DNA of 64,000 nt from positions 62,001 to 126,000 of the forward strand of contig NZ_JAINZZ010000018.1 in NCBI RefSeq assembly GCF_019890725.1, read 5' to 3'. Positions 6,381 through 6,485 of the stretch are shown piece after piece (positions within the stretch are counted from its first letter, which is position 1; the number at the start of each line of letters is the position of its first letter). This DNA comes from Actinacidiphila acidipaludis. GTDB taxonomy: Bacteria > Actinomycetota > Actinomycetes > Streptomycetales > Streptomycetaceae. The notes below the pieces were generated by a model that saw nothing but the letters and a program-made list of their open reading frames with translations, did not search any database and had not been told where the DNA came from. The position numbers and the translations under genes are program-made.

Positions 6381-6485
6381 TCAGGCGCGCGGACACGCCG
6401 CGGCGGTGCGGCGGCACAGGTCGACGTGCAGCCGCGCCACGAGCAGGGTGCCCGGCGCCGTGAAGCCCACGTCCATCAGAACCAT
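6381..6485 (-). CDS. Cysteine-responsive leader peptide upstream of cysO
   Basis: This 34-residue peptide contains [13 protein letters not shown] followed by TAAACPRA. It matches the RLHVDLxR...C pattern of the small leader peptides found before sulphur and cysteine genes in Streptomyces, and has two cysteine codons in its second half. It lies between mec and cysO on the same strand. The ATG at 6483-6485 has no ribosome site, but a TACGAT -10 box ends 6 bases before it, so a leaderless transcript is likely. Its job is probably to sense Cys-tRNA by ribosome stalling. Confidence 0.8.

Follow-up and report, generated by a model that had tools for sequence, protein, structure and literature searches.

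In E. coli tnaC, a stalled ribosome governs Rho-dependent attenuation, and in the leaderless polycysteine short ORFs (sORFs) of mycobacteria, reportedly described by Canestrari in 2020, ribosome stalling at Cys frees a downstream Shine-Dalgarno (SD) sequence. The family NF042934 (cis_reg_atten) is named just as a putative leader peptide, and neither a UGU codon rule nor a promoter is part of it. Seliverstov 2005 (PMC1262725) described actinobacterial cys leader peptides with Cys runs in Mycobacterium, Propionibacterium and Bifidobacterium, and Rho-dependent attenuation was once proposed there for the mycobacterial ones. A short open-access literature search found no paper describing the motif reported here.

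The leader described here lies within a 64,000-nucleotide stretch of Actinacidiphila acidipaludis DNA (the window), where its same-strand neighbours are mec, cysO, cysM and an MBL-fold phosphodiesterase-like gene. The features of the locus are as follows.

6545–6967, minus strand: mec, encoding a JAB-domain hydrolase (Prok-JAB PF14464, E=7.4e-31), upstream of the internal promoter
6480–6506, minus strand: sigma-R-type promoter GGGAAT-N18-GTT, a consensus match, with TACGAT and the leader ATG lying within it
6492–6497, minus strand: TACGAT, candidate housekeeping -10 box inside the sigma-R spacer, with a predicted leaderless start at ATG 6485
6381–6485, minus strand: leader ORF of 34 codons when counted from ATG 6485, or 29 from the GTG at 6470–6468
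6468–6470, minus strand: GTG, 9 nt downstream of GTT, where the sigma-R transcript is predicted to have its leaderless start
6393–6434, minus strand: conserved block R-L-H-V-D-L-C-R-x-x-x-A-x-C, marked by an invariant Arg+5 and by pN/pS
6393–6395, minus strand: UGU, the last Cys codon of the leader and its putative sensor, lying 11 codons beyond the His
6259–6380, minus strand: C-rich, G-poor untranslated spacer (C 66, G 27), a candidate Rho loading region
5980–6258, minus strand: cysO, sulphur carrier protein (ThiS PF02597, E=2.5e-16)
5030–5977, minus strand: cysM, cysteine synthase (TIGR01136, above cut-off)

The leader contains the same 19-residue block as NF042934. With the mycobacterial polycysteine sORFs (Canestrari 2020; NF042936, leader_Ms4527A) it has in common a predicted leaderless start, Cys codons before sulphur genes, the RRxVDLxR block and the UGU at +11; unlike them, it has two Cys codons that do not form a run, no predicted SD release, a C-rich spacer and a sigma-R promoter. 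It resembles the leaders of Seliverstov 2005 in standing, without a terminator, before cys genes and in the involvement of Rho that is proposed for both, but it belongs to the Streptomycetales, has a single invariant UGU, and its C-over-G bias was measured against controls. As in tnaC, the leader stop is followed by a Rho-type region and blocking of Rho is proposed; there is, however, no homology to tnaC, and for the present leader ligand and arrest are both putative.

The sequence-only reading had described a frame of 34 codons (6381–6485) with two Cys codons, a TACGAT box ending 6 nt before the ATG and no ribosome site. Re-reading the sequence returned the same frame on the minus strand (6485–6381), TACGAT at 6497–6492 with a separation of exactly 6 nt, and no SD before the leader ATG. 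The Cys codons are TGC (6416–6414) and TGT (6395–6393), six codons apart and with no run of consecutive Cys codons. In 87 loci, 5–7 nt separate TAnnnT from the ATG (always 6 nt among the Streptomycetaceae loci listed), and TAnnaT is kept in all Streptomycetaceae leaders; no -35 element was found for the TACGAT box. The -10 box at a fixed short distance, together with the lack of an SD, indicates that the leader ORF is probably leaderless. With regard to the promoter, the earlier reading was right about the box and too narrow about its extent, as the conserved block comprises GGGAAT (6506–6501), N18 and a GTT (6482–6480) overlapping the ATG. This sigma-R promoter, the second start at GTG, the invariance of the UGU and the selection on the peptide were absent from that reading.

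An ATG-started leader precedes cysO in 87 of 99 Streptomycetales loci, in every case with HVD[LF]xR, and its stop lies 46–202 nt from cysO (122 nt in the copy in the window). Two further loci (L014, L015) keep the HVDLCR block in a frame that is broken on the 5' side after nine codons, with a restart at an ATGA overlap; in the remaining ten the leader is missing or truncated, and most of them keep the promoter. In an unseen set of named cysO loci, 66 of 72 have the motif, and cysO itself is present in all genus and order genomes searched except one incomplete assembly. Outside the Streptomycetales, a motif search within 500 nt found no leader in 40 class-wide mec-cysO loci, with the sole exception of L132, where the motif lies 324 nt upstream. 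Named relatives (Actinacidiphila, Streptacidiphilus and Streptomyces) place the window in the Streptomycetaceae. On this distribution the leader is real and conserved. Its own match to NF042934 (25.0 bits, E=1e-5) is far above chance and 2 bits under the 27-bit cut-off; an orthologue (G070:C4:282749) scores 39.6 bits, above it, and the context agrees with that family, namely a short ORF shortly upstream of a sulphur/cysteine gene, here cysO. The leader probably belongs with NF042934. The leader family, a widespread actinobacterial one of probable cysteine sensors, occurs in 89 of 118 sampled Actinomycetes genomes, the family sets having been drawn from HMM hits, which favours good matches.

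The promoter contains an exact match (6505–6480) to the SigR consensus GGAAT-N18-GTT (PMC2375139), a pattern that occurs twice in the window where 0.21 matches are expected; the other lies at 58471–58496 on the minus strand. GGGAAT at -21 and GTT at +3 are found in 74/74 Streptomycetaceae leaders, Catenulisporaceae-like loci have N19 (three) or a GGGATG variant (ten), and 71/72 unseen loci carry the motif with N18–19. Nine nucleotides after GTT, GTG is kept in at least 99% of Streptomycetaceae leaders and in 66/66 unseen loci; Catenulisporaceae-like genomes have ATG or GTG at this second start, mostly ATG, 8–9 nt after GTT. We predict that the sigma-R transcript is leaderless and starts at this GTG. 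GGGAAT-TAnnaT-GTT persists in eight Streptomycetaceae loci whose leader is lost or truncated (L016, L018, L019, L026, L048, L055, L058 and L089), and GGAAT-N17-20-GTT also precedes cysO in many other Actinomycetes, where the spacer is unrelated and the leader absent; on both counts, the sigma-R site looks older than the leader. In agreement with thiol-stress control, cysM is barely expressed without diamide and is induced by diamide independently of NdgR (PMC4340878), and M. tuberculosis mec-cysO-cysM is under direct SigH control (PMC4803200). Genes for a SigR-type sigma factor and for Rho were found in the genome; beside the main rho gene there is a second rho-like match (G000:C110:2-931, L289) of 414 bits, which is under the cut-off and cut by a contig end.

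Selection within the leader is concentrated on one peptide block and one codon. Uncorrected pairwise pN/pS is 0.14 for HVDLCR, 1.56 for the leader N-terminus and 0.49 for cysO, and Arg+5 is invariant yet encoded by five codons (CGC, AGG, CGG, CGT and CGA). This contrast and the varied codons of an invariant Arg argue for selection on the peptide block RxHVD[LF]xR and for none on the N-terminus. In four cysO leaders (L039, L050, L054 and L065), an insertion like SASALLGAFGCGAA precedes RLHVDLCR and brings one extra Cys. The residue at +11 is Cys in 82 of 87 cysO leaders, and its codon is TGT in 82/82 of these, in 67/67 paralogues from the window's genome and other genomes of the order, in 24/24 and 16/16 leaders of the class-wide sets (mycobacterial-type leaders included) and in 63/63 unseen loci. 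Overall, UGU is used in 252/252 leaders class-wide where the Cys is present, these leaders being related by descent and thus not independent, and TGT makes up 12% of Cys codons genome-wide. The +11 Cys is absent from 5/87, 2/69 and 3/66 leaders. Other Cys codons in the same leaders are mostly TGC (+4, 74/74; +9, 21/21), as they are in the class-wide sets (52:13 and 6:4, TGC to TGT). Because the bases flanking UGU vary, the conserved unit is the codon, which on these counts is under extreme selection. UGU would be decoded by wobble by tRNA-Cys(GCA).

Downstream of the leader, the spacers to cysO have a mean C–G excess of 0.25, compared with 0.02 in 85 control upstream regions taken from one genome, that of the window, with a simple gene caller (p about 5e-25); the window's own spacer exceeds all 85. 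The bias starts only after the UGU and drops within cysO, and paralogous leaders share it more weakly (0.16). In its best 78-nt stretch, the window's spacer reaches C/G = 3.8, and spacer MFE per nt is -0.295 compared with -0.416 in controls, a profile like that of Rho-dependent terminators, which call for about 78 nt of unstructured RNA rich in C and poor in G. Some spacers are as short as 46–65 nt. No intrinsic terminator (GC hairpin with U-tract) was found in the spacer, TTTTT occurring in 0% of spacers; alifold detected no covariation, with 0/26 pairs changed on both sides; an Rfam search returned nothing relevant; and a post-leader hairpin is confined to part of Streptomyces. The composition is suggestive of a rut site, short of proof.

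Altogether, these observations make cysteine attenuation at cysO-cysM, as the sequence-only reading had proposed, likely, and we lean, with slightly better than even confidence, towards the following scheme as a whole. An internal promoter between mec and cysO, composed of a sigma-R (thiol-stress) site and a nested housekeeping -10, would give a cysO-cysM mRNA that starts with the leaderless leader ORF, and the RLHVDLxR residues would occupy the exit tunnel as UGU reaches the A site. With ample charged Cys-tRNA, the ribosome would pass UGU and leave at the nearby stop, freeing the C-rich, G-poor, unstructured spacer so that Rho halts transcription before or early in cysO. When charged Cys-tRNA is scarce, the ribosome would wait at UGU, Rho access would be blocked and cysO-cysM would be transcribed; the wobble codon, and probably the nascent peptide as well, would make this wait sensitive. 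Operon output would then require thiol stress and cysteine shortage together, as in an AND gate. The leader, the peptide-level selection, the invariant UGU, the sigma-R motif and the C-over-G spacer are seen directly in the sequence, and from these we infer translation, the cysteine response, Rho and the role of the peptide. Blocking of Rho has a counterpoint in that a ribosome at UGU covers just the start of the spacer.

Among modes of attenuation, Rho-dependent termination is the best fit over SD release and intrinsic termination, the latter rejected with no terminator found; the SD and Rho arguments both rest on models. Translational attenuation in the style of the mycobacterial polycysteine sORFs, in which ribosome stalling at Cys opens up RNA masking the cysO SD, would suit a leader of the same family, given that mycobacterial-type leaders share RRxVDLxR and the +11 UGU and that PMC9094748 cites regulatory sORFs of mycobacteria that are leaderless and rich in cysteine. 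However, in a folding model of 87 loci, SD accessibility shifts by a mean of 0.007 when the leader is taken away as far as the stalled ribosome, spacer length varies several-fold and no structure covaries, and we consider this mode unlikely. Specific pairings fare no better: loci with CACTGG, TAACGG or CACGAGG as SD regions keep the same leader codons, which together with the modelling speaks against sequestration of the SD by CCUGUG (the Leu-Cys codons); UGU is retained where the ACA in the SD with which it might pair is missing; and conserved RNA hairpins were rejected on the alifold result. That the promoter is the sole functional regulator, the leader arising incidentally from leaderless transcription and doing little, might be argued from the sigma-R motif being kept where the leader is lost, but peptide-level selection and an invariant UGU at many unrelated genes that have no sigma-R motif (present in just 1/69 paralogous leaders) make this highly improbable.

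The paralogous leaders bear on what is sensed. The sequence-only reading had assigned the frame to RLHVDLxR-type leaders that precede sulphur genes in Streptomyces, and the assignment is genuine: the leader is one of eight in the genome, and most of these stand upstream of sulphur or redox genes. The eight precede sulphite reductase, a luciferase-like monooxygenase, a rhodanese, an ABC permease, cysteine dioxygenase with rhodanese, a flavin reductase, a ROK protein and cysO. The leader before cysteine dioxygenase, a cysteine-degrading enzyme, is of the RRVHMDLVRYAGCVC type and is kept in 14 genomes (L005, L164, L181, L184–L186, L189, L191, L193–L196, L198 and L199). A simple starvation switch for the whole leader family does not fit this paralogue; because starvation induction of cysteine dioxygenase would be futile, polarity or ligand may vary among leaders. 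Such a leader would be accounted for if the RxHVDLxR nascent chain arrested translation at UGU on sensing cysteine or some other sulphur metabolite, instead of simply uncharged tRNA, with a polarity that may differ by gene. Conservation at the amino-acid level at a fixed distance from UGU and the single Cys codon of many leaders are in line with such an arrest peptide, but one absolutely conserved Cys codon is equally expected from tRNA sensing, and we regard the arrest peptide as a doubtful alternative. Returning to Rho-dependent attenuation, we tentatively speculate that RxHVDLxR and UGU form one class-wide cysteine sensor, in which the tunnel peptide makes a single wobble Cys codon rate-limiting and feeds Rho-dependent attenuation, and which at cysO is stacked behind a sigma-R promoter, bringing together the inputs of thiol stress and cysteine supply within about 250 nt. 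The CysO-CysM sulphur-carrier cysteine pathway, SigH-driven in mycobacteria, would thereby gain a second, supply-side input in Streptomyces relatives, and a family so far called a putative leader peptide would be reduced to testable rules about a single codon (UGU as opposed to UGC), a single peptide block and a spacer rich in C.

From gene order, we take SCO2912 of S. coelicolor to be mec. The proposal of the earlier reading that mec is left outside the control finds only partial support: mec lies upstream of the internal promoter, and SCO2912, SCO2911 and SCO2910 rise together under oxidative stress, by 3.4-, 5.2- and 8.5-fold (PMC4991794). SCO2912 also carries an NdgR mark (PMC4340878).
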